64,000 bases of DNA from Cliona cf. orientalis (Eukaryota > Porifera > Demospongiae > Clionaida > Clionaidae). The stretch is taken from positions 31,804,235 through 31,868,234 of the forward strand of contig OZ005689.1 in NCBI GenBank assembly GCA_963930775.1. The letters run 5' to 3'. The position numbers were made by a program, and so were the translations under genes. This document shows positions 14,605 through 48,164 of this stretch, one piece after another. How positions within the stretch are numbered: the first letter of the stretch is position 1; each line of letters opens with the position of its first letter. The notes below the pieces were generated by a model, which saw only the letters and a program-made list of their open reading frames with translations, was not told the DNA's origin and did no database searches.

Positions 14605-15418
14605 ATATGTGACCGCCTACGGGAAAATCCGGCATATGGGATCAACGCGTAATAGTGGCTACGGGTGTTTTTAGTGACTAAGGTCCAACTCGACCAAAAT
14701 CGAGATGACAGCAATGAATGAACTGACCTTCCCTCTCTATGATGCAGCGTTTGTAGGAGTTGAATCGCACCGAGGGCTGCAGAGAACGCTCAAACACACC
14801 ACCATGTCCGACGAACAGGCTGTCCCGGCCGTTGGTATACGGAGCACGTTGCTAAGGACGCTAATTAGAAAGCGCGCGCGGGCTCCTCCGTTTCACCTGC
14901 GCTCACTTGTTTTAAGACAGGTAGTGTACTTTTTTCACCATGTCCAAGGACAGAGAAGCCGCTCGAGCCCTCAATCGCTTCGCTCGCGAGTCACACTTTG
15001 TAGGTGGTGCCAATAGCTCCGCCTTCGACGACTTCCTGGAAGATTATTTTTGTGGGGATGACCCTGCCAATGATTCACCAGGTAATCAACACTACACTTT
15101 CTTATTAACCATACTTTACCATACCATTATTCATTATAGTTGAGGATGAGGAGAGTGATATACACTGTGACGGTAATGTGTATCATAATAATCATTACAG
15201 TATTCTAGCTACATATTATTGAAACAGCTTTTTGCTATGAAGAGGACAGCTGCGATGAAGATACTGGAGCAGATGAACCACTCATCAATGACCTGCAATT
15301 CAATGTAGATGATGCAGTCTCCCGTCTTCCAGCTGACCTCTAGGAACTCCCAGAGAACACCACCCAAGCAACTCTACAAGACAATCCTGCAACTGAGAAC
15401 AGTACAGTCAGTGAGGTA

Positions 15419-15915
15419 CCGTATTTCCTCGAATAAACGCCTCCCTCGAATAAACGCAGGCCCCGTTTATACGCCGGGGGTACAAGGCGCTGTGTACGTA
15501 ATAAACGCCGGGCTTCAAATAAACGCCGGGTCATTTACGGAGTGGGCGTGGCGCGAAGCAAACAGGGCCACGTGTACGCTTGTGGGTGTGGCAATATGCT
15601 AGTCTAGTCTCGGTATCTGGCTACATGTACGATGGCGCAGCAAAGAAAAAGGTGCTCGTACGACCTAAGCTTTAAGCTTAAAGCGATCGAGTCGGCCGAA
15701 AAGACATCTAAAGAAGCAGCAGCTCGTGCCTGTCCTCGCTAACGCTGCCCTGGCTCGCCATTCTGCTATTAATACATATGATTTCGTCGACCAGTACCAG
15801 CTGCGGTTTAGCACGTGCGAAGAACATAAACATTAAACGCCGGCCCCGATTTAACGCCGGGTCAGAGAACTTTGTTAATAAATAAACGCCCGGGCGTTTA
15901 ATCAAGGAAATACGG
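15419..15915. mobile_element. TA-flanked MITE nested in the 5.4 kb element, with transposase N-terminal remnant
   Basis: TIR CCGTATTTCCTCGAATAAAC and, at the other end, GGCGTTTAATCAAGGAAATACGG; TA flanks at 15417-15418 and 15916-15917, as for Tc1/mariner/pogo elements. The third copy of the host element (about 30990) lacks this insert at the equivalent place, giving an empty site. Inside, a plus-strand frame from about 15631 begins MAQQRKRCSYDLSFKLKAIE and continues ESAEKTSKEAAARA, resembling the Brinker/psq-type helix-turn-helix at the start of pogo-like transposases. It stops after about 35 codons. Confidence 0.85.
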
Positions 15916-16974
15916 TATATCAAACACTACTATTTCCATCTTTTTTTTTGGGGGGGGGGGGGTGCTAGATGTGTATAGTGTGGCCTTGACGTAACTTTTG
16001 TGCACCCCCCTTAAAGAAGTCCAAAATGCAGCCCAACCAACTTACTTTTCTTTTTTTGATAGGATGATCCAGATCCTGACCTAACGGTGTTCCTAGAGAA
16101 GGGATGTGGTTGCAAGTGAGCTAGTGGTAAACCTTGCAGCACAGTATTCCCCAGGGAGCACTATGAGAGCATGCGAATGCAGTGTGCTGAGCTCTCAAGG
16201 GACGAACTGGACCTTGTCATCCTGGGTCAGATCTCAGCTTTGCTGTCAGACACTCCCAACACCAAGTCCCACCGGCCAGTTGTATCACGCCAGAGATCTT
16301 CCATGGCCTTCCATCACAAGGGAGAACGAGTATGCAGGAACACGTTTCAAAAGCTGCATGGAATAGGTTAGCTACAAGTGAGCATTTTTTGACATGGGAA
16401 AATGAAACATACTAATACAGGAAAGGATCGCTTCATGAGCTTAAAAGCAAGCTACTCAGCCTCGGGATTGACTACCAGGGTACACGGAAACACCAAGCAT
16501 GCACCCAAGAATGCATTGAAGTTTGAGGAGATAAAGAATCTCGTATCCTTTATCAACAACTACGCCGAAAAGCATGCTATCCTGCTGCCTGGTAGGATTC
16601 CAGGGTACAAGAAGGACAACCTTCAGCTCCTTCCATCTAGTACAACTAAAAAGGTATCCCCACTTAAGAAACAACCACAATGTACATCGCAGTATGGATC
16701 CCACCTTTCAGTACATATCTTGTATTGTAGGCAGTGTGGGTGGAGTACAAGTTGTCAGCAGATGAAGCTGATCTAAAAGCTGCAGCTTATTCCACTTTCT
16801 GCATCATGTGGAGGAAGCTGACACCACACATCATGGTCATGAAGCCGATGACAGACTTGTGCTGGGTGTGTCAACAAAACGGTATGGCCATCATGAGAGC
16901 AGCCAATACCCCTGAATCGGAAGTCACAGGTAAACATGCAATACACTTGTAGGAAAGGAAACCGCCTTATAGGA

Positions 16975-18258
16975 GTGTACACTATTACACACGTTAACAT
17001 ACACATACAAACACACACATACACACTCTCACACATCCAATACACACACTCGCTTACATGTATGCAATATACACGCACACACATACACACTCTCGCACAT
17101 CCAATACATACGTACACACATACACTCTCGCACATCCAATACACACGCACACACATACACACTCTTGCTTACATGAATGCAATACACACGCACACACACA
17201 CTCCCGCACATCCAATACACACGCACACACATACACACTGTCGCTTACATGTATGCAATATACACGCACACACATACACACTCCTGCACATCCAATACAC
17301 ACGTACACACACACACTCGCTTACATGTATGCAATATACACACACACACATACACACTCTCGCACATCCAATACACACGCACACACATACACACTCCCGC
17401 ACATCCAATACACACGCACACACATACACTCGCTTACATGTTTGAAATATACACGCACACATACATACACACTCTCGCACATCCAATACACACGCACACA
17501 CAAACACACTCTCGCTTACATGTATGCAATATACACGCACACACATACACACTCCCGCACATCCAATACACACGCACACACATACACTCGCTTACATGTA
17601 TGCAATATGCACGCACACACATACATACACACTCTCGCACATCCAATACACACGCACACACAAACACACTCTCGCTTACATGTATGCAATATACCGCGCA
17701 CACACACACTCTCACACATCCTTACATGTATGCAATACACACGCACACACATACACACTCTCGCTTACATGTATGCAATATACACGCACACACATACACA
17801 CTCCTGCACATCCAATACACACGTACACACACACACTCGCTTACATGTATGCAATATACACGAACACACATACACACTCTCGCACATCCAGTACACACGC
17901 ACACACACACACTCCCGCACATCCAATACACACGCACACACATACACTTGCTTACATGTATGCAATATACACACACACATACACACTCTCGCACATCCAG
18001 TACACACGCACACACACACACTCCCGCACATCCAATACACACGCACACACATACACTTGCTTACATGTATGCAATATACACACACACACATACACACTCT
18101 CGCACATCCAATACACACGCACACACAATCACACTCTCGCTTACATGTATGCAATATACACGCACACACATACACACTCTCACACATCCTTACATGTATG
18201 CAATACACACGCACATACATACTTTCTCTCTCACATCCTTACATGTATCCATACACGT
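16975..18258. repeat. Intronic compound satellite (AC-rich, ~60-150 bp higher-order units)
   Basis: About 1.28 kb of alternating-purine-pyrimidine repeats built from blocks like acacgcacacacatacacac, tctcgcacatccaatacac and tcgcttacatgtatgcaata in varying order, filling the intron between exons 6 and 7 of the putative transposase. It produces long, wholly artefactual open frames of His-Thr and Cys-Val repeats on both strands. A much shorter version is in the equivalent intron of the third copy (28500-28640). Confidence 0.92.
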
Positions 18259-19999
18259 AGGTGATCAAGGAAGCTGAAGCACATCTCCTCTTAGCCACCC
18301 AAGAGAGGTCCAATTACACTTGCGTCATTGAGACTTCTAAGACCACGTTGAAGGACACATTCACTAAGGAGGGTCAGCTGAGAGTTCCACCGATTAATGC
18401 GTGCCTAGCAGCAAAAAGTAACACCATATCAATGCACTTCAGCTTTGACATGGCCCAAGTACGGTAACCACCATGCAAATCAGTGTACTAATTTAACAAA
18501 GTACTCTCATATCAATAGGTGCACTACCCCTCAGATCCGCAGCAGCCAGGGCCAATGTACTTTGTACTCCGCGCAAGTGTGCAATTTTTGGTGTATGGTG
18601 TATGTTGTGAGGCTATACCAAGACAGGTGGGCTTTAAATAGAAATACACCACGCACTTCCATTATAAATCCTTTTTACTAGGTAAATTATCTGATCAATG
18701 AGGCTGTGAACACCGGCAAGGGTGCCAACTCGGTGATAAGTATGCTTCACCCATTTTTTATACTCTCACAATCTTGGTGAGACTGACTTGCTCCTTCATG
18801 CCGATAACTGCTCGGGGCAAAACAAAAATCGTTTTGTCATGCAGCACCTCGCCAGCGGCCTGAAGAGTGCTAGGTGGTCTCAACAACAGCATCATTTCGT
18901 CATTTTTGATTGTAGGCCATACAAAATTCTCTCCCGACTGGTGTTTCGGGCTATTCAAGCAGCTGTATCGTCGCAGTAAGATCGGTTGCCTCGATGATAT
19001 AGCTCGAGTGGTTGAAGAGTCTGCTGTTGTAAACCATGCTCAGTTGGTGGGCACCCAAGATGGGACGACGTTAGTCCACACATACAACTGGGCAGAGTTT
19101 TTTAATGCACCATTTCGGCAGACAGCACTCAAGGGAATTAAAAGCATGCACCATCTCACCTTCACCAGCTCGAAGCCAGGCTCTGTAGTAGTCAAGGACA
19201 CAATCAACAGCCCTGAACGGGAGATAAACATGATTGTAGACAGCAAGTGGAGACCCAGGGCAGATCAGCTACCTCCCATTATTTCACCACCCGGATTGTC
19301 TAAAGAGAGGAAGCAGTATCTTTTTGAAAAGATCAGGGAACATTGCCCTCCCCACTGCCAAGACGTCGTGTGTCCAGATCCGGCTCTGGAGTATGAAAGC
19401 CCCCCGGCCCCTAAAAGATCAAGGCCTCAATAGTTTATTTTCAATCACATGCAGAAGCACATACACACTTAGATACGGCATCCATGCTATTTCATTTATT
19501 TTTCTGTACTTTATGTATACCGTATGTATCTGGACTTACCAGGTTATGCCATGTTCTAACAGCAGAAAATCTGTCAAACATTTCTCCACATCATGAATAC
19601 TTGACACGACCCTGTGTACGTTAGCACTGTCAAAAACAAACGCTGTGAGACGGTAAGATGCCATCCTTTCGATATTTCAGCCATCAAACCCTCGTGCTCG
19701 CCTTGGACAAGATCAGCTGATTATTGTGTAATCAAGCGCAATGCGCAATGCGCGCACGTATGCGAATAGTATACGGAGCCGTATTGCTACTTGCATAGCA
19801 ACGTGTTCAGGACGTAATTGCTCGAAATAATGTATTCGGGCACGGGTGGATAAGACGGGTCATAACTAAAAAAATAAGCGAGCGATCGCTCTTGAATTTG
19901 AACGGGAGGTAGTTCAAAGGTCATAGGGGCTATATACGTGATAACAGTGATTTGTCCAAAAATCCCATATGCCGGGTTTTCCCGTAGGCGGTCACATAT

Positions 20000-20770
20000 T
20001 CCATATGAAGGTCACATGGTATATTCTTCCCTACCATGTGTATTAATCAATCCGGACCACTGTAGTTGGTGTGATAGCCTTGGTGATAAGATAAAGCTAT
20101 GTTGAGCAAGTATACAAAATATTTCGCAGGCGTAATTGACTCAGTTGGAAGCCTTGAACATTGGAAGTATGTATTTAAAACATCGAAACTCTCGTGGCCC
20201 GCACCTTCCTTTATGGCATCTGAATATTCACTATATAGCACCCCAAGTGTAAGTAGTTCACATCCCTACCTAAAAACATTGGTGTATTTCTTTTACCACC
20301 ATTGCTCACCCCTTCAATTTCACCTGTATCGGATTCACCTTCCACTTATTTTCTTCTCCCACATCTTCACCTTCATCATCTGAAATAGTATTTTGACAAG
20401 CTTGCCCCTTGAGAGTAACTTCAGTATTTGAATCTGATGTCTTTAGTGTCTTATATTTGACAGTACTGATATCCACAGAAGTGTGAATAATTTATTCCCA
20501 ACCACATGATCAAGTACTTCCTTCCTCTCATCCTTGAAATGTTCGAGGACATCCGGAGGAATTATGATTTCACTGGGAGTGTCGGTTACGCTTTACATGC
20601 TCAACAGCTCCATTGAAGCAACCATGTTATGTGCAGAGAGTGCCAACATTAAGAAATTATGACAGGCATCAAATTATTTCTTTGGATAATTCGTCACATC
20701 ACGTCGTTTCAACAGATTCCTCAGCTGACAAAGCGTTGCACTATCTGATGCCGATGCAGTCTTGTATAGT
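20000..20770 (-). pseudogene. DUF6589-like protein, middle exons
   Basis: Minus-strand segments in order: LYKTASASDSATLCQLRNLL, RRDVTNYPKK, LMLALSAHNMVASMELL (about 20770-20600); IIIPPDVLEHFKDERKEVLD (about 20590-20500); an acidic linker (DDEGEDVGEENK); and LYSEYSDAIKEGAGHESFDV with CDLHMEY at the left edge (20000-20020). Stops and frame changes interrupt it. It joins the 14302-14604 fragment across the 5.4 kb element. In DUF6589 proteins the DHGTLHQLRNL-like and CDLHxE-like segments are typical, which supports the assignment. Confidence 0.65.
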
Positions 20771-21149
20771 TGTTTCCAAATAACCTATTACGGAGAGAAT
20801 GGGGGAGAGGTAGTCAAGGATTTTCGATTCGGGGGGAACAACTAGTGGGTTGCCTTGATGACCCAAGGGAATGGGAGCAGGTGCATAGGAGATATGCCCC
20901 TTCCTTCGAAAAGTGCAGGAAAATAAAGCAGTGTTCCCATAAAGCCACTTACGCAAAATTTTATGAACTTCAATTCTTTTTTTTGGGGGGGAGGGGGGGT
21001 GGTGGTGGACGGACACGTACACCTTGATGGGCTAAGTGGATAAACCCTGGGTAGTATTAGAGAATATATTATTATATTATATTCAGCAATGATTGGTATG
21101 AGCTTCAAAAAGAGAGAATAAAGGGAGTGCATGAAACTATGGTCTATGA

Positions 21150-22740
21150 TGCAAGTTGGCTGCAAAGTTTTTGTCTATCAACAATAAGTTAACTTGTACT
21201 TGTGTTGCCAGTCTTCTGAAGTGGGTACAAGACCACGTAATCAATCTAATGTGTCAATGAAGTTACATCTGATTCTCTGACTTCCTCTTGCTTTCTTTGC
21301 TGTCAACTGATCTCATCCTGTTTCGGTTTCCAAGCATTGATGGGTGTAGAAGTGAGAGGGTTAATAAATGTGACCGGATTTGGGAAAACCCTCCGTATGG
21401 GATTTTTTCAGAAAATTGAGTTTGATGCATGGTTGATAAGCTCTACCATAGAGCTAACCCACGTTCAAGTCTTAGGCCGATCGCGCGCTTTGTTGTGGAG
21501 ATACAGCGCTTTGTTTGCGATCGGCCACACCCCCAATAATCAAGAAATTGCGGTCTAAAGGTGTTGCTACGCACGCGTATGGCATTTCGGCATACTACGC
21601 GTGACCCGGAAATCAATTAAATGGACCTGGGCAGAGCCGTTCGAAATGAACGTAAAGATCGAGCAAGAGTTGAATTTCGTTGTTGACAACGACAGCCGAT
21701 TGTTCTTAGATGCCCAAGAAGCTAAAAAGGTGAGCGAACGTACAGTAGATCGATGAATCTAGCTGTATCTAGGTAGAGAATTCTATTTAGCGCCCATAGC
21801 AACGGGCTCCGTGTATGGTGGCTGTGCCAACTAGGTGGGTCAAAATGAAGGCTTATTTCACCTTCGTATAGCACGACTAGCCTCCCTAGAAGACGGCAAC
21901 AGTTAGAAGAAGGGTTGTTCGACATGTATATGACAAAATCTGGACTTTGACAAATTTGGACCTGAGCTACTAAAAACGCGCATTGCGCGAATCGCGCGCG
22001 GATCCCATACGGAGGGTTTTCCCAAATCCGGTCACAAATGAAGAGAATGATGAATTTGAGCTAAACGATGGCTATTCAAGATATTGACCTTCCATAGTGT
22101 CATCAAAATCCAATGGCTTGTCGATTCCACTCTGACCCACATCAGAAATCAAAATTACACATTATGCATACCTGTTTATTGGTGAGGGTACTATTTTTTT
22201 TCACAAACCTGAATGTGTGAACAAGCAATAGTTTTATCTATCATTTTTGATTTCCACTGCTTCACAGTAGCATCAAAATCCTTACCAAGATAATCCAGGG
22301 TATTTAGAGTGATCTTGTGTGATGTATAGAGGTGAAGTCTCTGGAACCTTCTGAAGACCTTAAAACAGAATATAGATCAAATTAATAAGCACTGGAGTAC
22401 AATATCCGGACTAATGAAATACTTACAATTTCAGAACAGCTGCCAGAAATAAGGATGGGGAGATAACCTTCTCTAAGAGTGACATAGCTGGGCATCGATA
22501 ATTGCAGAGTATGGCCATACAAATGGCAATGGTTAAATTTTGTCCATTTTTCAAAAACTGCTGTCGTGAAGCATGCGACTTCCTTAAGCACTCCCTTTTT
22601 CTTGGTTTATAATGTGAACTGACTCGGAGTATCTCCAGTAGGGTTGGTGCAGCTTCCTCCATCTCCTTGATTACAACATTGCATGAATAGCTCCGCGCAC
22701 ATTTCCTTTCTTCAAAATGGAGCCAAACTTATCTGAACAA
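21150..22740 (-). pseudogene. DUF6589-like protein, N-terminal exons, interrupted by a MITE
   Basis: From the N-terminus: AIHAML...KEMEEAAPTLLEILRVSS and AMSLLEKVISPSLFLA (22740-22430); FRRFQRLHLYTSHKITLNTL and DYLGKDFDATVKQWK ending at a donor (about 22365-22205); and DQLTAKKARGSQRIRCNFID...GLVPTSEDWQHKYKL (about 21320-21180). The GDQLT-type motif is characteristic of DUF6589; its Gly-Asp is damaged here and in-frame stops occur. The 0.66-kb MITE at 21370-22035 lies between exons. Together with 20000-20770 and 14302-14604 this makes one minus-strand pseudogene scattered over 8.4 kb. Confidence 0.7.
21370..22035 (+). mobile_element. 0.66-kb MITE family, copy B, complete, TSD AAAT
   Basis: TIRs GTGACCGGATTTGGGAAAAC at both ends, continuing CCTCCGTATGGGAT. 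AAAT flanks at 21366-21369 and 22036-22039. It carries the family's conserved 28-codon open segment, 21646-21729 (MNVKIEQELNFVVDND...), followed directly by AAG|GTGAGC, a splice-donor consensus. Confidence 0.93.
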
Positions 22741-22744
22741 AGAA

Positions 22745-24310: not shown

Positions 24311-24464
24311 ACACAGTACGCTACACCAACATGTTCACATCACTAATAATTGCTCTACGTATTTGTTGGACTTTCAGTTGCTGGCTATTTGGACTCAGAT
24401 AGTGAAATGGATATTTTGAAGTAGCTTCTGATCTCAGCAGCACTTAAAGATTCATGTTCTCATG

Positions 24465-24640: not shown

Positions 24641-24642
24641 CT

Positions 24643-27690: not shown

Positions 27691-28099
27691 GTAACTATTA
27701 ATTTTAATATTGGTCTAAATAACATCCCATAATTTGCATGTAATTTACAACAGCACACTCTTCAACAACTCTAGCTATATCATCAAGGCAACCAATCTTA
27801 CTGCGACGATACAGCTGCTTGAAAAGCCAGTCGTGAGAGAATTTTGTATGGCCTACAATCAAAAACGACAAAGTGATGCTGTTGTTGAGACCAGCTAGCA
27901 CTCTCCAGGCGAGGTACTGCATGACAAACGATTCTTGTTTTGCCCCGAGCAGTTATCGAGCAAGTCTGTCTCACCAAGATTGTGAGTGTGTAGAAGGTGG
28001 TGAAGCATACTTAACGCCGAGTTGGCACCCTTGCCGGTGTTCACAGCCTCATCAATCAAAAGGATTTATAATGGAAGTGCGTGGTGTAATTCTATGTAA

Positions 28100-28180
28100 A
28101 ACCCACCTGTCTTGGTATAGCCTCACAACATACACCATACACCATACACCATACACCATACACCAAAAATTGCATATTTG
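28100..28180. repeat. (CACCATA)n microsatellite expansion inside exon 8 of the third copy
   Basis: On the plus strand accatacaccatacaccata repeats several times at the place where the other copies encode GVCCEAIPRQ; the 5.4 kb copy has only about two units. The 7-bp unit changes the frame, so this exon is inactivated. Confidence 0.75.
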
Positions 28181-28499
28181 CACAGATTTAAAAAGTACAT
28201 TGGCCCTGGCTGCTGCGGATCTGAGGGGTAGTGCACCTATTGATATGAAAGTACTTTGTGAAATTAGTATACTTATTTGCTTGGTGGTTACCGTACTTGT
28301 TGGGCCATGTCAAAGGTCAAGTGCATTGATATGGTGTTACTTTTTGCTGGTAGGCATGCATTGATCAGTGGAACTCTCAGCTGACCCTCCTTGGTGAATA
28401 TGTCCTTCAACGTGGTCTTAGCAGTCTCAATGATGCAAGTGTAATTGGATCTCTCTTGGGTGGGTAAGAGGAGATGTGCTTTGCATCTTTGATCACCGA

Positions 28500-28860
28500 C
28501 GTGTATGTGTATGTGTATGGATACATGTAAGGATGTGAGGGAGAAAGTATGTGTGTGCGTGTGTATTGCATACATGTAAGGATGTGTGAAAGTGTGTGTG
28601 TGCGTGTGAGGATGTGTGAGAGTGTGTATTGCATGCATGGGTTGGGTCATCATAAAGTATGCCAATGATGAACAGAGGTGAACTACCAATAAAATAGTTA
28701 TCTGACAGTATTTGTGGTGCATTCAACCGTGCATCTCATGCACCCCAACTACCATCAGATAACTATTGTGTGTTGTGTGTGTAGAGGTGTAGGTGTAGGT
28801 GTAGGTGTAGGTATAGGTGTAGGTGTATGGTGTATGGTGTATGGTAGGCAGAGGTAGATG
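28500..28860. repeat. Short satellite, then (GTGTAG)n tract
   Basis: 28500-28640 is a reduced form of the AC-rich intronic satellite in the 5.4 kb copy (reverse orientation). 28775-28850 is a run of gtgtag/gtataggtgt units grading into gtgtatg units. The hexamer differs from the animal telomere repeat TTAGGG. Confidence 0.7.
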
Positions 28861-28894
28861 TGTGTGTGCACATATGTCTGTACAGCTGCCATGC

Positions 28895-29231
28895 ATGGAG
28901 CCCGTTGCTATGGGCACTAATTAGAATTATCTACCTAGATACAGCTAGATTCATCGAACTACTGTACATTCGCTTACCTCTTTAGCTTCTTGGGCATCTA
29001 AGAACAATCGGCTGTCGTCAACAATGAAACTCAACTCTTGCTCGATCTTTACGTTCATCTCGAACGACTCCGCCCAGGTCCATTTAATTGATTTCCGGGT
29101 CATGCGTAGTATGCGGAAACACCATACATGTGCATAGCAACACCTTTGGACCGTAATTAGCTTATCAACCATTCTTAAAATGTAACTTTCACAAAAAATC
29201 CCATATGCCGGATTTTCTCAGAGATGGTCAC
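28895..29231 (-). mobile_element. 0.66-kb MITE family, partial copy
   Basis: On the minus strand the element begins GTGACCATCTCTGAGAAAAT (29231), continues with CCGGCATATGGGATT like the 5.4 kb transposon TIR, jumps to the middle of the family and includes the conserved open segment with a GTGAGC-like donor region. The far end is missing at about 28895. Confidence 0.75.
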
Positions 29232-29716
29232 ATATGCATGTGCAAAATATTATTGTATACCCCCACCCACACTCCTATAAAGGCGGTTTCCTTTCCTACA
29301 AGTGAATTGCATATTTACCTGTTATTTTTCCGATTCAGGGGTTTTGGATGCTCTCATGATGGCCATACTGTTTTGTTGACACATCCAGCATAAGTCTGTC
29401 ATCGGCTTCATGACCATTGTGTAGTGTCAGCTTCCTCCACATGATGCAGAAAGTGGAATAAGCTGCAGCTTTTAGATCAGTGTCATCTGCTGATAACTTG
29501 TACTCCACCGACACTGCCTACGATACGAGTTATGTACTGAAAGGTGGGATCCATTCTGTGATTTACATTGTGGTTGTTTCTTAAGTGGGGATACCTTTTT
29601 AGTTGTACTAGATGGAAGGAGCTGATAGTTGTCCTTGTACCCTGGAATCCTACCACGCAGCAGGATAGCATGCTTTTCAGTGTAGTTGTTAATGAAAGAT
29701 AGGAGATTCTTTATCT

Positions 29717-30382
29717 GTGACCGTATCTAGGAAAACCTGGCATATAGCGAATTTTATGATTTTTTAGTTAGCTACATATTAATTTTGATAAGCTCTACCA
29801 TAGGGATAACCCGCGTTCAAGTTTCAGAGAGACTGCGCTTCGTTGTGGAGATTCAGCACTTCGTTGGCGATCGCGCCACACCCCCAATAATCGAGAAGTT
29901 ATGGTCCAAAGGCGTTGCTATGCACGCGTATGGCGTTTCCGCATACCATGCATGACCCGGAAATCAATTAAATGGACCTGGGCGGAGCCGTTCGAAATGA
30001 ACATAAAGATCGAGCAAGAGTTGAATTTTGTTGATAACGACAGCCGATTGTTCTTAGATGCCCAAGAAGCTTAAAAGGTGAGCGAACGTACAGTAGTTTG
30101 ATGAATCTAGCTGTATCTAGGTAGAGAATTCTAATTAGTGCCCATAGCAACGGGCTTTGTGTACAGCTGCTGTACAAACTAGGTAGGTCAAAATGAAGGC
30201 TTATTTCGCCATTGTAACTTACGTTTAACCTCCGTAGGTGTTGGCAAAGGTTAGTAGAAAGGTTCTCTGATATGAATATGACAAAAACTCGACTGAGACA
30301 TTTTTGACCTGAGATACTAAAAGCACGCATTGCGCTGCTTGCGCGTTCTCGCAACATGCCGGGTTTTCCCAGATCCGGTCAC
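29717..30382 (+). mobile_element. 0.66-kb MITE family, diverged complete copy, TSD ATCT, inside exon 5
   Basis: Left TIR GTGACCGTATCTAGGAAAAC, right (reverse complement) GTGACCGGATCTGGGAAAAC; ATCT at 29713-29716 and 30383-30386. It splits exon 5 of the third transposon copy. The 5.4 kb copy has the uninterrupted sequence (tttgaggagataaagaatct) with a single AGAT, a direct empty-site comparison. The conserved 28-codon segment here has an in-frame 3-bp deletion and a terminal TAA. Confidence 0.93.
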
Positions 30383-31263
30383 ATCTCCTCAAACTTTAAT
30401 GCATTCTTTGGTGCATGCTTGGTGTTCCCGTGTACCCTGGTAGTCAACCCCGAGCCTGAGTAGCTTGCTTTTAAGCTCATGAAGCGATCCTTTCCTGTAT
30501 TAGTATGTTTCATTTGTCCATGTCAAAAATGCTCATCGTAGCAAACCTATTCCATGCAGCTTTTGAAACGTGTTCCTGCGTACTCGTACTCCCTTATGAT
30601 GGAAGGCCATGGAAGATCTCTGGTGTGATACAACTGGCCAGTGGGACTTGGTGTTGGGACTGTCTGACAGCAAAGCTGAGATCTGACCCAGGATGATAAG
30701 GTCCAGTTCGTCCCTTGAGAGCTCAGCACTCTGCATTTGCATGCTCTCCTAGTGCTCCCTGGGGAATAGTGTGCTGCAAGGTTTACTAGTAGCCCACTTG
30801 CAACCACATCCCTTCTCTAGGAACACCATTAGGTCGTTGTTGAAGAGGATAAGTAGTTGGTTGGGCAGCATTTTGGATTTCTTTAAGGAGGGGGGTGCAC
30901 AAAAGTTATGTCAAGGCCACACTATACAGCAACCCGCCCCCCCCCCTCCATAACAAAAAGAAATAGTAGTATTTGATATAACTCATTGACTGTACTGTTC
31001 TCAGTTGCAGGATTGTCTTGTGGAGTTGCTTGAATGGTGTTCTCTGGAAGTTTCAAGAGGTCAGCTGGAAGACTGGAGACTGCATTATCTACATTGAATT
31101 GCAGGTCATTGATGGGTGGTTCATCTGCTCCAATGTTTTCATCGCAGCTGTCCTCTTCATGGCAAAAAGCAGTTTCAATAATATCTAGCTCGAATACTGT
31201 AATGATTATTATGATACACATTACCGTCACAGTGTATATCACTCTCCTCATCCTCAACTATAG

Positions 31264-31647
31264 CAAGAATAAAAACAATTGAATAAAATTGAAGAATGAA
31301 GTAGGGATGGCAGGATCAAAAAGTGCACAAACGAGATAATCAGATCTACTATACATCCCTATGCTTGCTTTTCTCAACTAGTATTGTGCACCTATTAATC
31401 ATGGTTGACGTGTTTGTTGAGTGCGGTATGTGGGAGACATGATTCATGCAGGTTGTTCCCTAGTTGTCACGATGGTTCGGTTTATTAGTTTTGATTCAAT
31501 CGTATCACAGTTATTACTGGATATTTTTGCACCCCTCAAAAAGCAAGCGTAGGGATGTATAGATGTGATTATCTCTTGTTTGTGTACTTTTTGATCCTGC
31601 CATCCCTACTTCATTCTTCAATTTTATTCAATTGTTTTTATTCTTGT
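31264..31647. mobile_element. Foldback element with ~105-bp inverted arms
   Basis: The arm at 31264-31375 (including gaatgaagtagggatggcag) is repeated in reverse complement at about 31545-31647. A ~170-bp spacer separates the arms. It sits in what is intron 1 of the third transposon copy. Confidence 0.85.
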
Positions 31648-31979
31648 TTCTGTTCTTTTTTATTGCACTTAGTGTAATTTATCAATGCCATCTTACATGG
31701 TTTGCTCACAACTTCTGATTGAGTGGAAGATGAGAGGTACGCAAAATTCTTTGCCACGCCCCTCATTAACTTGCATTAATAATATTAATAATAATTATTA
31801 TGATGACGATGAACAGGATGACAAAGAAGGCTGCTTTAGGCGGCCCAAGTAGTGATGAGACTTTTCCGCTTAGGGAGAAAACCAAGTTCTATGTTTAACT
31901 GTTGGCAGCAGCTAGCTACCCGGCATAAGTTATGATCTGTACGTTTTGAGTATGTTTTAATACCGCTGTTCGAGCCTTG

Positions 31980-33274
31980 TTCCTTCATATCTATGACCGA
32001 TCCAGCGTAGCACTAGCGTTGCAAGCGCTAGCGAGTAGTTCGCCTATACCTAGCGCCTTACCGCTCCTCCAGCGCGCCGTTGCACGCACTAGCGATGTGC
32101 TAGCCTTGAACCCAGGCTCACTTAGCTCGCCTAGGACCCTTGCAGGCGCTGTCACATGACTTCGCCATGGCAACATATTCCAAGCATGCGCATTCTATCA
32201 CAAAATGGCGTATTAGACACACCCGTTCGATAATGCGCCGTACACACCCACTATTACGTAACAGTCGAGATAACGCCAAACTAGCGTGCCACTGCACTGC
32301 GCGCTACAAAATAGAGTGGATTTATACTCAAAGTAAGGTGAGCGGTGGAGGCAGTCTTGAGTTAGCCCTGATAATGAAAAAGAAAGAGAAAGAAACCTAG
32401 ACAAATGGCTATTTTTTGAACGTCTGGTTCTGACGTGTACAATTGTTTTGATGAATGATCTTGGTCTTGTTAGATGCACAATCTGCTGGTGATTCTGATT
32501 TTCACACTTAGAAATTTCACAAAATTACCTATTTTGAGATATTTGGGTATTTGTAATGTATTACATATATGTGACCGGATTTGGGAAAACCCTCCGTATG
32601 GGATTTTTTCAGAAAATCGAGTTTGATGCATGGTTGATAAGCTCTAGCATAGAGCTAACCCGCGTTTAAGTCTTAGGCTGATCGCGCGCTTCGTTGTGGA
32701 GATACAGCGCTTTGCTTGTGATCGCGCCACACCCCCAATAATCGAGAAATTACGGTCTAAAGGCGTTGCTATGCACGCGTATGGCGTTTCCGCATACTAC
32801 GCGTGACCCGGAAATCAATTAAATGGACCTAGGCGGAGCCGTTCAAAATGAACGTAAAGATCGAGCAAGAGTTGAATTTCGTTGTTGACAACGACAGGCG
32901 ATTGTTCTTAGATGCCCAAGAAGCTAAAAAGGTGAGCGAATGTACAGTAGATCGATGAATCTAGCTGTATCTAGGTAGAGAATTCTAATTACCGCCCATA
33001 GCAACGGGCTCCGTGTACGGTGGCTGTGCCGACTAGGTGGGTCAAAATGAAGGCTTATTTCGCCTTCGTATAGCACGACTAGCCTCCGTAGAAGGCGGCA
33101 ACAGTTAGAAGAAGGGTTGTTCGGCATGTATATGACAAAATCTGGACTTTGACAAATTCAGACCTGAGCTACTAAAAACGCGCATTGCACGAATCGCGCG
33201 CGGATCCCATATGGAGGGTTCTCCCAAATCCGGTCACATATGGCATATCCGGGCCATCCCTACTTGACTCTATG
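31980..33274. repeat. Repeat X, copy 2 (with nested MITE)
   Basis: About 600 bp shared, in opposite orientation, with 51046-51665: rich in gctagcg and ggcgctagg segments, then a block encoding KWRIRHTRSIM and NAKLACHCTARYKIEWIY ahead of an AAG|GTGAGC donor, then gatcttggtcttgttagatg and gggtatttgtaatg, ending ccatccctactt. The MITE at 32571-33237 splits it. The sequence 31648-31980 shows nothing recognisable beyond short repeats. Confidence 0.7.
32571..33237 (+). mobile_element. 0.66-kb MITE family, copy C, complete, TSD ATAT
   Basis: GTGACCGGATTTGGGAAAAC at both ends; ATAT at 32567-32570 and 33238-33241. The other copy of repeat X (near 51070) lacks the insert at the matching place. The conserved open segment is at 32848-32931, followed by GTGAGC. 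Confidence 0.93.
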
Positions 33275-33540
33275 ATTAATAATGGTATGGTAATAAGGAA
33301 GAGTAGTGTGTGAATCATTGGCAGGGTCGTCCCAACAAAATTAATCTTCCAGGAAGTCGTCGAAGGCGGAGCTATCGGCACCACCTAGAAAGTGTGACTC
33401 GTGAGCAAAGCGATTGAGGGCTCGAGCGGCTTCTGTCCTTGGATATGGTGAAAAAAGTACACTACCTGTCTTAAAACGAGTGAGTGCAGGTGAAACGGAG
33501 GAGCCCGCGCGCACGCTTTCTAATTTGCGTTATTAGCACG

Positions 33541-37319: not shown

Positions 37320-37320
37320 G

Positions 37321-37940
37321 TGACTCTCACTCAGCTTACTGGGAGTTTTAATTTTACCATTACAGGGAACCAGAAAGAGTCTTTCAAAACAAATATCCAT
37401 AAGTACTTGCAGAATCTTATCAGTAACCTTGAAGATCGATTTTCTGACAGTGGTGTGTTGAGTGCACTCGCTAACATTTTTAATTCACAGAAAGCCATGT
37501 GTTGCCCCAGTGATCAATTTAATAACTATGGTAATGGAGAAGTAGCCACTATAAGTGCACACTTCACCACAACAGTTGCAAATGATATCTTGCTTCAAGA
37601 GTGGTCATGCTTCAAGCACCTTTTAATAGCTGAATTTAAGGAAGTGTCTACACGTGATATTATGTCAACACTATCAGCTAACACTACCTTTTCCTCTCTG
37701 TATCCCACTTTATCTAAGTTAGCAAGCATTGCTTTGATAGTTCCTGTCTCTACTGCTGACTGTGAGAGAGGGTTTTCGACAATGAACAGAATTAAGACAG
37801 ATCCAAGAAATAGACTCAAGACTGAGACAGTAGATAAACTCATCCGCCTTTCTTCAGAAGGTCCAGAGTTGGACCAGTTCAATTTTGAAACAGCTGCTAT
37901 GCTTTGGGCATCCAGAAGCAACCGTAGAATAAACATCTAA
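37321..37940 (+). pseudogene. hAT transposase C-terminal exon (dimerisation domain)
   Basis: An acceptor (tttttttacag) opens an exon of 206 codons ending in TAA. The C-terminal half reads YPTLSKLASIALIVPVSTAD, CERGFSTMNRIKTDPRNRLK and VDKLIRLSSEGP, the classic hAT dimerisation region of the ZNF862/KIAA1586-like group. The exon itself is intact, but no 5' part adjoins. The N-terminal part of a similar protein lies at 61208-63000, on the same strand but 24 kb away. Called pseudogene because the rest of the gene is missing. Confidence 0.85.
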
Positions 37941-38174: not shown

Positions 38175-41100
38175 ATGATGGCAGCACAAACTAAAGTGAT
38201 GGCTGCCCAGAGCCTACCTCCTCTTCCCCACTTCAGTGGCGAGGGTAACCTAGTGGGAGAGAATACCTTCGAGCGTTGGGTAGAGCATTTTGAGGAGCGG
38301 GCCGCGGTTGCAGGTTGGACGGGAGAAGAGAAGAAGTATCAATTGAAGATGCATTTAGATAAGACTGCATTTCAAACTTACTGCAATTTGCCAAAGGAGA
38401 CCCAAGGAAGTTATAGTGATGTAATATCTGCTTTACGTAAACGGTTCCAACCAGTTGATATTGAAGAGCTCAGAGGGGCAGAGTTTTACCAAATGATCCA
38501 AAATACTGAAACAGTAGAAGAGATGGGAATCAAGTTGCAGACTACATTGCAAAGTACTGCTTTAAGAAAGGTAGAAAGGGGGGTGGAGCTGAGGCCACTG
38601 GAAGTAGCCAGCCGAACAAAGTGTTGAGCACTGTCACAGATATGACTGACCAACAGCTAGAGCAAGAGTTAGCTAGTCGTAGACTGAACAGGGAACAAGC
38701 CTTGCTAACTGACCCTAAGCCTAGTGATGGGGGTAAGGTGAATGTTGTTAAGGGAGCTGTGGGGCCTACCCTAATGTTAGAGCTTTTTGTTGAGGGTTTG
38801 CAAGCTGCTGTTGTTGATACTGCTTCCAATTCCACTATTATTTCCAGACCAATGTTACATAGCATCAAGTGTCATTTAGAGTCTCTAGGCAAGCCTATTC
38901 CCAAGCTGGAGTTGCCTTGTATGGGAATGAAGGGACTAAGTGAAAACCCCTAGACATTACAGCCCAAGTTATGCTTCTTGTGATGGCCACAAGGTCACTG
39001 TCCCCACCTTTATCCAGCCCGATAGCGAACAACCCTGCCTTATAGGTATGAATGTCATTCTGTTCCTAGGCATTACAGTGAGGAGAGCGAATGGGAAGCC
39101 CCTGCATGCTGTAGCCGAGCAAGTAGTCCAAGTTAGGTTGTTACAGGCAACCACAATCCCTGGGCAGAAGGGACGGGTAGTTGAAGTACAAGTAGAGAGT
39201 GATGGGTGTGTGGGAGATCAGCTTTTATTTGAGTCTGAGCATCAGAAATTGAGTGAGTTAGGAATCTGGGCACAAGAATCCTTAATAGCAGGACAGCCTA
39301 GTGGGAAAGCTTTACTACCAATTCAGAATTTTCAAGTGATTTCTGTCAAGCCGGCAGAGGGAAAACAGTTAGGTGTAGCGAGTCTGTGTGACTTACCCAG
39401 ATCAGAAGAGCCTGAGCCTAATCCAGAGCCTACACTGGGTTTGTTCCGCAAGGGCAGCGTGATAGTCCCTGCACATGCATGCGTGAACGCATTACTCAAT
39501 ACTTCAGAGCGCTATGACACATTAATGAAAGTGTTGGACTTGCCAGATGATGTGAACCCTTCTGAAATGAAAGAATTTAATGAATTAATGGAAAAATCTA
39601 TAGATATCTTTGCTCTTGATGATAGTGAGCTTGGTTGTACCAATGTAACCTCTCACAGAATTGATACCGGTGATCATCAACCGATGAAACAGATGCCATA
39701 TCAAACACTCATTATTTACCGAGATAAGATCACCCAGATGGTGAACGACATGGAAAAACGAGGAGGAGTCCGGCCTTCTTCTAGCGCTTGGGCTAGCTCC
39801 GTAGTCTTGGTTTCTAAGAAGGATGGGAGCTTGCGCTTTTGCGTAGACTTTAGGAGGCTTAATAGTATCAAAAAGAAGATGTTTATCCACTTCCTCGTGT
39901 GGACAATATCCTGGATACTCACTCTGGGGAATGCCAGATTCTTCACCACCTTGGACTTAGCTTTAGGGTACTGGCAGGTACCACTTGATGATGCTATACC
40001 GAAGACTGCAAGTGTTTAACCGGCTGAGAACAGCTAACTTGTGACTAGAGCCTAAGAAGTGTAGATTCCTGTGCAAACAAGTGAAGTACTTGGGACACGT
40101 AATTTCCGTTCATGGAGTCCTTCCTGATCCAGAGAAACAAACCAGGTGAAATCCTTTCCTACCCCTACCGATGTTACGTCAGTTCGCAGATTCCTAGGCT
40201 TAGCATCCTATTACCGGCGCTTTGTGCTCAAGTTCGCAAAAATAGCTGCCCGCTTACATGCTTTGCTGAAGAAGGAGAATGCTTTTGAGTGGACTTCCGA
40301 ATGTATTACAGTTTTCAACTTGCTTAAGATGCTCTTACTTCATCACCAGTTCTTGTGTATCCGAAGTTTGGCCCTGACAGTGAGTTTATTCTTGAAACTG
40401 ATGCCAGTTATGTTGTTCTTGGAGCTGTCTTGTCGCAGCTAGGATGGTGAAGCATACCCGATAGCTTATGCTTTACAATCTTTAAATGTCCATGAGAAGA
40501 AGTATGGAGTCATGGAGCTTGAGACACTTGGCTTAGTGTGGGCTGTCCGATACTTCCGCCCTTACTTGCTTGGCCATAAAACAAAAGTCTTTACTGATCA
40601 CAGTGCTTGTCTATCTTTGCTAAACCATCCCAGACCTTCTGGAAAATTAGCCCGATGGGCTTTGACCATCCAAGAGATGGATTTATTAAGTTAAACATCG
40701 ACCTGGGAAATCCAACACTAACGCGGATGCGCTATCACATCACCCCGGACCCCAGTGTGCCGCTAGTGAAAATGCAAGCATTCCAAGCCCTAGTGGTGAT
40801 TGTAATGAGAGCCTCCCATGCGTAGGTACCCCTCAGCCCAGTAAATGTATTTCTAGGCAAAGCCCCAAAATATCTGTATGTTCTGTGAATTCTAAGAATG
40901 AAAATGAAAAAGAAATAAAAATAAAAATGATGAAATTATTGTGAATCCTAAAGAAATTATCTCTGATTGCAGTATGCAAAAAGCTACACGAGAAATTCAT
41001 GAGCTACAATTGAAAGACACCACCCTGACACCTTACTATAAATATCTGCAGGAGCATAGTCTTGGAGTGTGAGAAACTCGAAGTAATAAATGGAATTCTT

Positions 41101-41330: not shown

Positions 41331-41335
41331 CTCTC

Positions 41336-41842: not shown

Positions 41843-41861
41843 TTTTGTCGAAACAAACAAA

Positions 41862-42740: not shown

Positions 42741-43801
42741 AACGGCATGCAACCGTGCAAGCCAACCCCAGTGCTAGCTATCCCAGTACAATCGACTAGA
42801 ATCACAGCACAAGAGCACACTGTTTCATTTAAGGAAGTACATAAGCTTAAATACATAGCAAAGAATGTAATTAATGGTAATAATGTGACATGACACATCC
42901 CCCCACTTAAGGATGAACTTGCCCTCGAGTGGTTTACAAAAAGCAGAAACTCTACAGTCACAAAAATCAAATTCAATAATCCATACACAAAGGCTCAAAC
43001 ACATAATACCAAACAAAACAACCTTTATGTTAAACTCAGTACTGCATGACTAGTAAAATCACTCATGACTTGCACAAATCAATAAACCATAAATAACATA
43101 CTGTACGGACAGCAATGACTGAGATGCATTCATGACTTGCACAAATCACTAACAAACAATGCATAACTACTAGTCACTTGAAGTACCTATCTTGGCAGCT
43201 CGTGCCATTGATCTAGTCACAGGTCCTTCTCGACAAGGTAAGTTCTGTAATTGTGAGTCCGATCTCTCCTGTACTCGACCAGAATGGCGTTTTCGCTTAG
43301 CTTTCTTGTGTCGGCCTGTCCATGAAACGTTGCTGGAAATTTCAGGATAACATCTCAAATGGCTTATGGCAACAAACAGTGTAGGATCACTGGGCTTCTC
43401 TGTCAACTGAACTTCTGCATTAGTAGGAGTCAAGCTGATGATGCAGTATGGTATGGACCATGATACGGTCTTGCTAGATTCCAATCTTTTCCAGTGATAT
43501 CTCCAGGCATATAGGTCATCACTCTGTCACCAACTCGGAACTTTGGATTCTCACCCGCTCTGTCGTAGAACTCTTTCTGTTTACTTCGTGCTTTTCAAAT
43601 GTTCTCCAGTGCAAGTTTCTGAGCTTTGGCTAGACTAAGCAGGAATTCACTTCAACAGTCCTCCATGTCAACTAAATACTTATAGTTCCAAGTACGCTTT
43701 CTGTGGGCAAGCGAGGGTCGTGCCCATACAATAGAAAGAAAGGACTTTCTTTGGTAGATTCTTGAACCATAGATCGATATGTGAACAATAAAGTAGGTAG
43801 T

Positions 43802-44149
43802 CAGTGGCGTATCCAGGGGGGGTGCTAAGGCATGTTAGCACTAATTAATTATATACTTCTGAGCCTAAGGGGGGTGCTCGAATTTACATCAATAAATAAT
43901 GTCACTAGCATTTTACTAGATAAAAATGATATACTAAAGCTACAAAATCGCTAGCTAGTTCATTAGTAGCTGATCACCTGAACATTTTCATTGTTTTTGA
44001 GCGGTGGAGAGTGGAGAGCATGGGTGATTCGTAATAATGCACACCCAATAACGGGCGAAAATGGTGGGTGTGGTCGATAGTGGGCGTGGCTTCCAAATTT
44101 TCGCACGCAGATTGTTAAGCACCCCCCTTAAATCCTGGATATGCCACTG
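43802..44149. mobile_element. hAT-like MITE (CAGTGGCGTATCCAGG termini)
   Basis: TIRs CAGTGGCGTATCCAGG and (right, reverse complement) CAGTGGCATATCCAGG, one mismatch in 16. It interrupts the Ty3 integrase-downstream frame. A clean TSD is not evident (gtagt versus gttgc). Related in design to the elements at 24643 and 60404. Confidence 0.85.
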
Positions 44150-44810
44150 GTTGCTGATCCCATTCTAGAGTCTTACACTGAACATTTTGATATCATTCCC
44201 AATAACGTAGAGTTAAATTTCTCCACTAACTCATCCCTCTATGGGTGGTAGCCACTAGTGTTTAGCTTTTTGATGCTAAGGATACGACATCTCTCCAACA
44301 TTAGTGACCCGCTCCGGGAAAAGGGACCGTTCGCAATTTTTTGTCAATATCACGTTTTTGGTATGGATCGTTAGCGCTACAAGCGTAGAGTACAATGGTA
44401 CAAGTTTGGAGTTCTAATATTACTCTGGGACCGTGTTATGGCCGTTTCTAATTGACCGGGTCGCGTCGCCCGTTGCCAAGGATATCGATAGAAACGGGCG
44501 TTTAGTTTATTTCCTGTTTATTCCGTGTACGTTACGTGCACGTACGTGATGTTCGATGACGTCAGGTAAATAATTGATTTGCCAGGCCAAGCCAGAGAGG
44601 GGTCGCGCGCGCCTCGCAGAAAGAACAAAGGAGGTCGAAAAGGATCCTAGGAGGCGAGGAAGATGCTCTCTCTGTGCCACGTAGGTAAAAGGAGAAGGTA
44701 AGTACTCTCTTTAGTAGTCTACTACAGTATGAACCCAGTACAGTAGCTGTTATTCATGAACTGGTGTTGCCTACTGAAGGCAATTCTTTTTTCCCCCTGG
44801 ATTGCAGAGA

Positions 44811-44940
44811 CTATGACTCTGCCCAATTGAGAGATTGGGGGAGGAGGGGGGGGGGGGCAATGAAACGTACAGAGTGAGAGAGATACAGTAACAAAAATGG
44901 GGGGGGGGGGGGGGGGGTGTACAAAGAGTCAAAATAGCAG
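44811..44940. repeat. Poly-G / GA low-complexity 3' of the transposase gene
   Basis: Two poly-G runs (about 44845-44858 and 44898-44917) and GAGAGA tracts lie between the stop codon and the left TIR. They create spurious Pro- or Gly-rich frames. Confidence 0.8.
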
Positions 44941-44967
44941 AAAGTATGTGCAGGTGAGAGAGAGAGA

Positions 44968-47630
44968 CTACACTTTCTTTGGACACTTCCGTGCATTGTG
45001 TCCTTCCTCCTTGCAGATTCCGCAGAGCCGTGGCCGCTTAGCTCTCGTTTCACTGAGCTCTCCAGTGGTAGAGGCAGTGGCAGGAACTACTACAGTGGTC
45101 GTGGAAGTGGCTGCGGTAGTGGCAGGACTTGAAAGGACGGTAGTGGCTACAGCAGGAGTGACGTCTGGCTCAGTTGGCTCAGGACAGGTGGTGTCTTTGC
45201 ACTCGTCAGGACAATACATACTCGCGTATCTTAGGTACCACTGTCTGGTGAGAGAAAGTCCTGACGGCATGACTCGTTCCGGCAAATCTGTGGGGTCTGG
45301 ACTCCAGTCATCCTTTAGGAGCTTCATGTCAACTTCCAGGGAATCGGATTTGTGTCTAACGAAGACGTGACCCTTGTTATTCCCTGGAAATCTCAGATGG
45401 TGTAGTGACTTGATCCCCACACACTTGCCAATGTGCTCAGCAAGGAAGGAGGTCCAATCGTACGTTGGGACGATAACTGTCCCATCCATGTTGCCAACAG
45501 CCTGAGCAACGTTGACTGTTGCCGAACTGTTGACAACACTGGCAAGATCAGCTAGCCCCCCAATCTTCGTACGTCGATATCTGCATGTGGTATACACTGT
45601 ACATGTATGTATGTCTCTATCACTTACTTGTAGTACAGTATGTGATTGTATTACCTCTTCTTCATTAGGCCAAAGCACCAATCAGGGGAGAACTTGGTAT
45701 GGCCGGTGATCATGAAGGAGAGGGTGATGTTTTGGTGGAGTCCGGTGAGCACGCGCCACAGCAGGTATCCTACCATGGCGTTATTCTTATTTTGACCCCC
45801 ACAGTTGTCAGCGTGGAGGTGGACGTCCTGCTCTCCAAGCCCATGTACTTCGAAGAAGTGATGGAGCATGCTGATGATGGTGTTCGCTCCCTTGCCAGTA
45901 TCAACTGACTCGTCAATAAGGTAATTGACTTGACGCGGGATAGCCTCACAGCATACTCCAAAGATGGCACACTTTCTTGGGATAAGGAAGTACATGGGCC
46001 CTGGCTGTTGGGGGTCATTCGGGTAGAATACCTGCTGGGCCATGTCGAAAGAGTAGTGAGCTGTGATGAGCCTTGAGCTGGGTTGTGACTTGCACTAAAG
46101 ACACCGTCAGAAGAGAAGAACTGCCAGATGGACTGTTTGGCAGTGTCAATGGCCGTCTTGTATAAGGAGCGCTCTTTGGTGACCTCTTCTAAGTGTTGCT
46201 CGGCTTGACGAATGGCCTGAAATGATGTCACAATCTCACGTAAATTATATTTCTCTCTTTCTGTCACACATCCCTTTTGCATGCACAAAAGCATGTGGAA
46301 AGAGCATTTGCACACATACGACATGTACATGCACAGAATAGTTGCTACAATACATGTACATGTACATGCACGCCACACATACAAGCATTCATACAAGCAT
46401 TCAGTATGCACACCATTGTTTTCTCTTCTATAGAGCGGTTGGAGTACTTTGCAAGAGCAGCACCATTTTGTTGACAGAGCCAGCAGAGGTCGGTCATCGG
46501 CTTCATGACAACAATGTATGGCAAAAGTTGCCTCCACAACCATGTGAAGGTGGAATAGCCCACAGGTCTCATGGAACTCTCTGTCGCAGACTCCTGGTAG
46601 AGCTCCCACACCTTGTGCTTGGTTGTGCTGCTGGGGAGAAGCTGGACGTCAGCACTCTTATACCCGGGAACTCGTCCGGGAAGTACCATTGCGTTTGTGT
46701 CTGTATGAGAGCAAGGTAAATTCTTGCCTAATGATTGCTATAGAGTTTGATACCTGTGTAGTTTAAGATGTATTGAACTACATCCTTGACCTCTTGCAGT
46801 GAGAGTGTCTTCTTGGGTTTCCTCCCCTTGTTGCCATGCACTCTTGCTGCTGGTCCGTTGCGCAAATAGCTCGCCTTTATATGCTTGAAGCGCTTGATTC
46901 CGATGGTGTGCAGGAATAGAAAGGTTGGCTGACACACACGGAGGCCTGCATGAAAGAATTTCATGGGTGTGTGCACCTCTATCTTTTCTGCAGGACTAGC
47001 GCTGGGACTGGGGGCTGAGGGGGAGGGGGAACAGTGAGCCATGATCTGCCCCATCACCATCAAGTCAAGCTCATCTTTAGTCATCTCGCTGAGAGCTCCA
47101 CGGACAGCGAGGTAATGGTCTTCCGAGAACTGCTTGCAGCAAGGGGACTTGTGGGGACCAAACACGCACGTGCAGCCATGATCTGCGAACGTCTTCACCA
47201 GCTCCTCCTCGTCAGTATCGATGGATCGCATGGTTACTGACACATCGCAAATGTCGGTGAGGGAACCACTCTCAAGACTCGCGGAGACGATCTCTTCGGC
47301 TGACGGAGGATTACTCTCCTCCAGCTCATTTATCTCCTCGAGGGGGTCCTCCTCCACACCATCCATGCCCTCATCGCTAGCCACTAATGTATTGTTGTTA
47401 TAATTATTGTTAAATCCTGATATTAGTGTATGATGTAGTATGTATTATTCTTTGTGGGGGTAGTGGTGTAATAATGTATTTTTAAGTGGGTACTTGGGTG
47501 GGGTTTTACCTGGAGGGTCGTCATCGTCGAGGTAATCGTCCAGCAAGTCGAGTAGGCCGTCCGTGTCGGTGGAGAGAAGGTCCGCGTCTTCACCTAAGCG
47601 GTTGAGTGCCCTGGCGATTCTGTCCTCCAT
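44968..47630 (-). CDS. Putative transposase of the 3.6 kb element (DUF7869-like, CCHC knuckle), one frameshift
   Basis: Five exons with consistent phases: 47630-47510, 47383-46754, 46700-46414, 46216-45655, 45580-44968. Their sum is 2213 nt, one base short of a 737-residue frame; the missing base lies in exon 4 near 46090-46110. N-terminus MEDRIARALNRLGEDADLL, then an acidic region; DHGCTCVFGPHKSPCCKQF with a Cys cluster; TKDELDLMVMGQIM; VLPGRVPGYKSADVQLLPSS; MKPMTDLCWLCQQNG. The core has YPNDPQQPGPMYFL, GVCCEAIPRQVNYL, HADNCGGQNKNN and HTKFSPDWCFGLM, then YRRTKIGGLADLASVV and NMDGTVIVPTYDW; the tail has CPDECKDTTCPEP and a CCHC knuckle CGICKEEGHNARKC just before the stop. Intron positions differ from the 5.4 kb copy although the protein is collinear, so the lineages are old. 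The Asp of HADNC and that of SPDW are candidate catalytic residues (inference). Confidence 0.85.
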
Positions 47631-48164
47631 TGCATGCAGTACTGCTAATAGTATGCAGCCACATCAAGATCGATAACTACTTTGGCGGGAATCGGCTTAT
47701 CACTCGCCGATCTTATAATACAGTTGCCCGTATATTTATGCAAGTAAGTGAACTGTTCATCTTATTTTTATTTTTTTACATACTTATAATTGCTTAGAAT
47801 ACAAGCAAAGCATACCAAAATGAAGAGAAAAGAATATAGATTCATATGGTGTAAAAAAAATTATAAAAATACTTGATTCGGCCCTTTTCGGGCTCGTACT
47901 ATTTATTCTCGCGAACGGTCCCTTTTCCTGGAGCGGGTCACATTAGATCAGACAAGAAATTGGATCCTCGATCGGATAGAAGTTCCTCTGGCACTCCATG
48001 TCGGCAAATTATGTTATCCACCAGCAGTCGCGCAATAGTTGGGGCTTGTTGATCGGATACTGCGAAAGCTTCAGCCCACTTACTGAAATAATCCATAAAT
48101 ACGACTATGTACCTGTTTCCTCGGGAGGTAAGTGGCATTGTTAGTACATCAACAGCCTAAGTGA

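Follow-up and report, generated by a model that had tools for sequence, protein, structure and literature searches.

A 64,000-nucleotide stretch of the genome of the sponge Cliona cf. orientalis (contig OZ005689.1, here C1, positions 31,804,235-31,868,234; referred to below as the window) carries a family of DNA transposons with terminal inverted repeats (TIRs), two long members of which, E1 and E2, enclose a gene for a protein with the Pfam domain of unknown function DUF7869. On the evidence of the elements themselves, of their copies elsewhere in the genome (216.8 Mb in 149 contigs were searched) and of their relatives in animals and bacteria, the DUF7869 protein is very probably the transposase of this family.

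Transposons with 4-bp duplications in the window

E1 (14609..19995, plus strand, 5,387 bp) has the ends GTGACCGCCTAC and lies between copies of ATAT at 14605-14608 and 19996-19999. Its inverted arms span 38 nt including the ATAT flank, which corresponds to 34 nt of element, and match at 97%. E2 (44304..47941, coding strand minus, 3,638 bp) has the ends GTGACCCGCTCC and TIR arms of 31 nt, likewise 97% alike, enclosed by exact copies of ATTA at 44300..44303 and 47942..47945. The shorter, non-autonomous elements are located at 3424..4721 (1,298 bp, target-site duplication ATAT), 21370..22035 (666 bp, AAAT), 29717..30382 (666 bp, ATCT), 32571..33237 (667 bp, ATAT), 56748..57411 (664 bp, AATT) and 59132..59766 (635 bp, ATTT). 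Those at 29717 and 32571 reside in an older, fragmented E1-type copy on the minus strand (27744..33538). An initial annotation had claimed at least eight complete elements with GTGACC-type ends and exact 4-bp flanks, and all eight are present, the element at 59132 having GTGACT at its right end. The flanks of six of the eight fit the pattern AWWT, and 14 of their 16 ends carry AAAA at terminal positions 16-19, with AGAA in the other two. Neither E1 nor E2 gave a blastn match (E 1e-5) to the interior of the short elements in the window.

The bare hexamer GTGACC was rejected as evidence, as its frequency in the window is no higher than chance (33 occurrences versus 25.9 ± 5.8 expected; 12 of 100 shuffles reach 33). 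The signal resides in long paired ends with equal flanks. Thirty-five pairs with long inverted ends and equal 4-bp flanks qualify in the window, while among 20 dinucleotide shuffles 19 yielded none and one yielded a single pair. Only five of the 35 correspond to claimed elements, and the remaining three claimed elements fail this stricter filter. Judged from their coordinates, most of the other 30 pairs look like shifts of register or pairings of copies that face in opposite directions.

Genomic copies and empty sites

The E2 family was followed in 20 fetched stretches (L039-L058), 16 of which hold a match reaching both ends, giving 17 full-length copies together with the one in the window. 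Two stretches contain truncated copies (L048 and L058) and two have no match at E 1e-10 (L056 and L057). The left end is GTGACCCGCTCC in all 17 copies, and the right end is identical in 14 copies and differs by a single base in three, beginning with GTGACC in 16 copies and GTGACT in one; this conservation is in part a product of the sampling, because the 16 fetched copies were picked for BLAST matches reaching both ends. The flanks are unaffected by this choice, and they are identical 4-bp sequences in 13 copies and non-identical in four.

Ends of the short family are far more numerous, with 583 perfect 25-bp matches genome-wide (298 + 285) and none for a reversed-pattern control. Among the 100 ends listed, which are the first on C1 and not a random sample, 57 are flanked by ATAT and 85 by a sequence fitting AWWT. 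The duplications had been described as nearly always composed of A and T only, which holds for 90 of these 100 flanks and not for the other 10. When 22 pairs of neighbouring opposite ends were compared, a 4-bp repeat was found in 19, a 6-bp repeat in three, and a 3-bp or 5-bp repeat in none; 17 pairs also score as 2-bp repeats because ATAT is self-repeating.

For one insertion, a paralogous copy provides a clean empty site. The element at 29717 interrupts the older E1-type copy, and its flanks, minus one ATCT, align without a gap across the join to E1 at 14609, which is uninterrupted there, with identity in 564 of 604 columns. The 4-bp duplication, which the initial annotation had put forward for testing across genomic copies, recurs in long and short elements alike and is accompanied by an empty site. 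When the flanks of E2 are joined with one ATTA, a 91-residue frame results that, by eye, resembles a Gypsy integrase. Frames of at least 90 residues cross the joined flanks at six of the eight sites, five of them besides E2, so an open frame alone says little; a recognizable reading is found only at the E2 and 29717 sites.

Two E2 copies, one on contig C8 and one on C10, share 3,717 bp without a single difference. Their flanks differ and their duplications are AATT and ATAT, and this combination of identity, unrelated sites and different duplications suggests that the element transposed recently and not that a segment was duplicated.

The copies are also unevenly distributed. C1 is 37.5 Mb long, 2.5 times the length of C2, and makes up 17% of the genome, and it holds 36 of the best 40 short-element matches (query included). 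The first 100 listed ends, all from C1, comprise 10 before 17 Mb and 90 at 17.5-20.9 Mb. DUF7869 matches and short elements are crowded on C1 between about 17.5 and 37 Mb, with the window at 31.8 Mb, and this part of the contig could be a non-recombining or heterochromatic region.

The DUF7869 gene

The gene in E2 is read from the minus strand as a series of putative exons bounded by GT..AG sites: exon 1 at 47510..47630, exon 2 at 46754..47416, exon 3 at 46414..46700, an exon with the predicted catalytic core at 45655..46216, and a last exon at 44968..45580, which completes the DUF7869 domain and adds a C-terminal CxxC..H..C stretch (zinc-knuckle match of 10.2 bits, cut-off 20.8). The core exon contains codons for three aspartates at 46044-46046, 45807-45809 and 45681-45683, and in this copy its frame is broken near 46060. 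The protein obtained by splicing at these sites by eye and reading through the frame break has 747 residues and matches DUF7869 (PF25273) with 63.2 bits against a gathering cut-off of 26, which bears out the family assignment made in the initial annotation. Single pieces taken alone stay below the cut-off, at 22.3 bits for E1 (18867-19433) and 11.4 bits for E2. A protein of about 740 residues, as had been proposed, describes the family and not the copy at 44304, because that copy has introns and a frame break. The region of the break reads on in one frame in 15 of the 16 other full-length copies; L051 is the exception, three residues are missing from L054, and in L055 the first aspartate is replaced by a different residue.

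E1 also contains a minisatellite (17065-18189) of some 30 copies of ~37-bp units that are 67-74% alike, which yields long spurious open reading frames (ORFs) rich in T and H.

Relatives, conserved aspartates and predicted fold

Of 7,994 candidates scored in a protein search, 316 are relatives at E <= 0.001; the named ones among the 120 listed belong to sponges, corals, a sea urchin and a snail (Gigantopelta). A second search with bacterial queries found 51 relatives, including proteins from oysters, a mussel, a limpet (Lottia) and a Desulfobacterales bacterium. In an alignment of 59 of the 120 listed relatives, numbered by the residues of P0001, D323 and D402 are invariant and D444 is at least 90% conserved, and DUF7869 is matched in all 59. 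One further sequence, P0177 (874 aa), is a much diverged DUF7869 relative whose C-terminal stretch looks by eye like a SAP motif.

A structure predicted for one relative adopts the RNase H fold of integrases and transposases. The three conserved aspartates occupy the DDE/D positions of the modelled fold, and the DUF7869 domain coincides with what would be a DDE/D-type catalytic core. This agrees with the importance that the initial annotation gave to the aspartates of its DNC and SPDW motifs and with the RNase H-like fold, with these residues at the active site, that it had proposed to look for. Foldseek alone is weak here, with two matches at E <= 0.001, both to CAST transposition complexes with TM-scores of 0.15-0.22; the VIA lists re-examine Foldseek's own ranking, and unlisted families are not thereby excluded. 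Retroviral integrases and the Mos1 and Sleeping Beauty transposases share about 10% identity with the protein, and those systems have other ends, targets and duplication lengths.

No NCBIfam model reaches its cut-off among those compared; the best match pairs 51 residues of one relative with the N-terminal part of an ISNCY-family transposase model (E 0.00049, 19.4 bits versus 250). Weak matches to HTH_28 and HTH_29 occur in two relatives each among the 59. A sequence search of the PDB gave one irrelevant match (E 0.67), and BFVD gave no match at E <= 0.001. Two stretches of viral contigs fit the search pattern, and neither encodes a relative. A literature search with the motif GQNKN returned nothing that by title concerns this subject.

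The gene copies are under purifying selection. Over a 229-residue core, the median ratio of nonsynonymous to synonymous substitution rates (dN/dS) is 0.164 (range 0.029-0.625) in the 28 pairs with usable dS. These remain from 171 pairs among 19 of 20 loci (L021 was dropped), after 142 pairs proved saturated or failed and one was too close, and the sample favours intact copies because the 20 loci were chosen among those lacking internal stops. One aspartate is altered in three of the 19 loci (L017, L034 and L035). Taken with the predicted fold, the three conserved aspartates and the position of the gene inside the ends, this makes it very probable that the gene is the transposase, as first proposed.

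In a tree of 44 proteins, which has an arbitrary root and some long branches, the transposase from the window groups with the sponge sequences of Halichondria and Dysidea (96/99). Eight bacterial rows are separate from the 10 named animal rows, and rows of unknown origin fall among both.

Bacterial elements with similar ends

In a scan of bacterial and archaeal genomes, 43 stretches matched the pattern, and relatives are encoded at 12 of these loci. For eight of the 12, identity over most of the protein is 28-38%. Another (L068) is 73% identical and derives, like L066, from a metagenome-assembled genome (MAG) of a sponge symbiont, and both may be sponge DNA. The relatives are sparse, with one match in each of seven bacterial genomes tested and any match at all in 11 of 389 genomes drawn from one bacterial class, several of these being only fragments. 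The locus in the isolate Desulfocicer vacuolatum is truly bacterial, as it lies on a 148-kb contig next to a sigma-54 activator and an integrase-type ORF, the latter extending into the left end of the element.

Six of the 12 loci (L059-L063 and L067) have inverted ends around the ORF, resembling insertion sequences (IS). Their hosts are Desulfocicer vacuolatum, Desulfobacterales, a Deltaproteobacteria MAG, Thiomargarita and a Legionellales MAG, and the distance between the ends is 2,056-2,339 bp in five loci and about 2.7 kb in L067. When these ends are aligned on the first G, all 12 carry AAAA at positions 16-19 and 11 have flanks that fit AWWT, as in the sponge family. They differ from that family in having one uninterrupted ORF and in their outer bases, which are GGGG or GGCG instead of GTGA. 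The left and right 4-bp flanks are identical in only two of the six elements (L060, AATT; L061, AAAT), a weaker signal than in the animal genome. The outer boundary was set at the first G by eye, and in L059 the inverted match continues into the flank (AAAT/ATTT), so that sequence alone does not fix the boundary there. No ends in the shared register were found at L065, nor at L079, a further locus from the survey of the 389 genomes, and L064, L066, L068, L069 and L070 yielded no convincing pair of ends, several of them being partial, broken or at a contig edge.

The distant elements L062 and L067 share the identical eight bases ATTTGTAA just outside the right end, which may reflect chance, a target preference or a misplaced boundary.

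Other features of the window

Sequences resembling other mobile elements also occur in the window. A Helitron_like_N match (E 3.7e-14) is located at 53757-54299, and two pieces that look related to hAT transposons lie at 11006-11812 and 37320-37937, with matches to DUF4371 (E 1.1e-20) and the hAT dimerisation region (E 3.8e-14). A weak gag-like match at 38175-38624 (Retrotrans_gag, E 0.00094; PNMA, E 0.00011; neither reaches its cut-off) is followed by an ORF at 38940-40019 that by eye appears to be a piece of a reverse transcriptase. An ORF resembling an RNase_T exonuclease (1356-2153, E 2.4e-7) is perhaps a host gene.

A proposed mechanism and the place of the family

The DUF7869 gene would encode a DDE/D transposase, here of D-D-D type, whose RNase H-like core is preceded by a region that probably binds DNA and followed by a cysteine-rich C-terminal tail. 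This protein is expected to bind the 31-34 bp inverted ends, of which AAAA at positions 16-19 would be the conserved core, and to excise the element. The element would then be joined to an A/T-rich target (AWWT, best ATAT) at points 4 bp apart on the two strands, and repair would produce the 4-bp duplication. The shorter elements, which have the same ends and no detectable internal similarity, may have been moved in trans by the same protein.

We estimate a probability of roughly 75% for the complete proposal that these are cut-and-paste TIR transposons with a DUF7869 transposase and that they belong to Sola2. Membership is argued from anatomy, because the family was compared with published descriptions of Sola2. 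The Sola2 elements of slime moulds are described with TIRs of 12-21 bp and 4-bp, A/T-rich AWWT duplications (PMC3627910), and both the length and the base preference of these duplications recur in the sponge. Sola elements in general are characterized by a DDD transposase, 4-bp duplications, sizes mostly of 2-9 kb and TIRs of 11-1124 bp, and bacteria and metazoans are among the groups in which they occur (PMC10741241); this range is shared by the DUF7869 relatives, and the D-D-D triad has its putative counterpart in D323, D402 and D444, judged from conservation and the predicted model. Repbase assigns non-autonomous elements by equal length of the duplication and by agreement over the first 11 bases with one mismatch allowed (PMC4455052). 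The initial annotation had suggested a new branch, which as stated is not supported, since the preference for 4-bp AWWT targets has already been published for Sola2. A difference is that the TIRs of 31-34 bp exceed those published for slime moulds. One result weighs mildly against placement in Sola2: DUF7869 proteins occur in the gastropods Gigantopelta and Lottia, whereas a mollusc survey with Sola profiles (fixed species set, E < 1e-5) found Sola only in bivalves (PMC10294476).

Alternatively, DUF7869 could define a separate, unnamed superfamily spanning bacteria, sponges, molluscs, corals and echinoderms, which kept the first G, AAAA at 16-19 and AWWT across the divide between bacteria and eukaryotes and resembles Sola2 in target choice only. 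Such a superfamily would fit with Pfam offering only a domain of unknown function, with the want of an NCBIfam model at cut-off, with the domain not being found by name in the literature searched, and with the gastropod proteins just mentioned. We nevertheless consider it unlikely, as the descriptions of Sola and Sola2 agree with the family in target, duplication length, D-D-D core and occurrence from bacteria to animals. Far less probable is a passenger or accessory role for the DUF7869 gene, with another protein moving the elements. The catalytic role assigned to DUF7869 does derive from a model and from conservation, and genes of other kinds do travel in such elements, as illustrated by Fanzor1 in Sola2 (PMC3627910) and a ParB/methyltransferase gene in a Sola1 (PMC12477816). 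However, all E2 ORFs of at least 150 aa overlap the transposase exons, the DUF7869 gene is the sole ORF within the ends of L059 (at least 150 aa) and L062 (at least 180 aa), and the predicted RNase H fold and the conserved aspartates also speak against a passenger.

Assignment to Chapaev, piggyBac, Kolobok or Zator has a negligible chance of being correct. Duplications of 4 bp are known in the first three, and DDE_Tnp_ISAZ013, the Zator-type model, weakly matches two of the 59 aligned relatives with a best E of 0.0013. Chapaev elements have CACT-type termini, piggyBac and Kolobok elements target TTAA, and Zator elements produce a 3-bp target-site duplication. In contrast, the ends here begin with GTGACC, with an invariant left end in the E2 copies; TTAA is found at none of the 100 listed flanks; and the short-family pairs include no 3-bp repeat, while the DDE_Tnp_ISAZ013 match scores 18.3 bits against a cut-off of 26.9. 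Most likely the sponge family belongs to a known superfamily, Sola2, that has been hidden behind the DUF7869 label.

Our findings propose a function for this domain, to which Pfam assigns none. The named relatives among the 316 are labelled ‘uncharacterized’ or ‘DUF7869 domain-containing’, so such genes should be treated as transposons, not as host genes. Comparing the similar ends and target in bacteria and animals could reveal which terminal bases are indispensable to the transposase. If membership in Sola2 is correct, the near-identical copies in Cliona would represent a candidate for a recently active element of this type.

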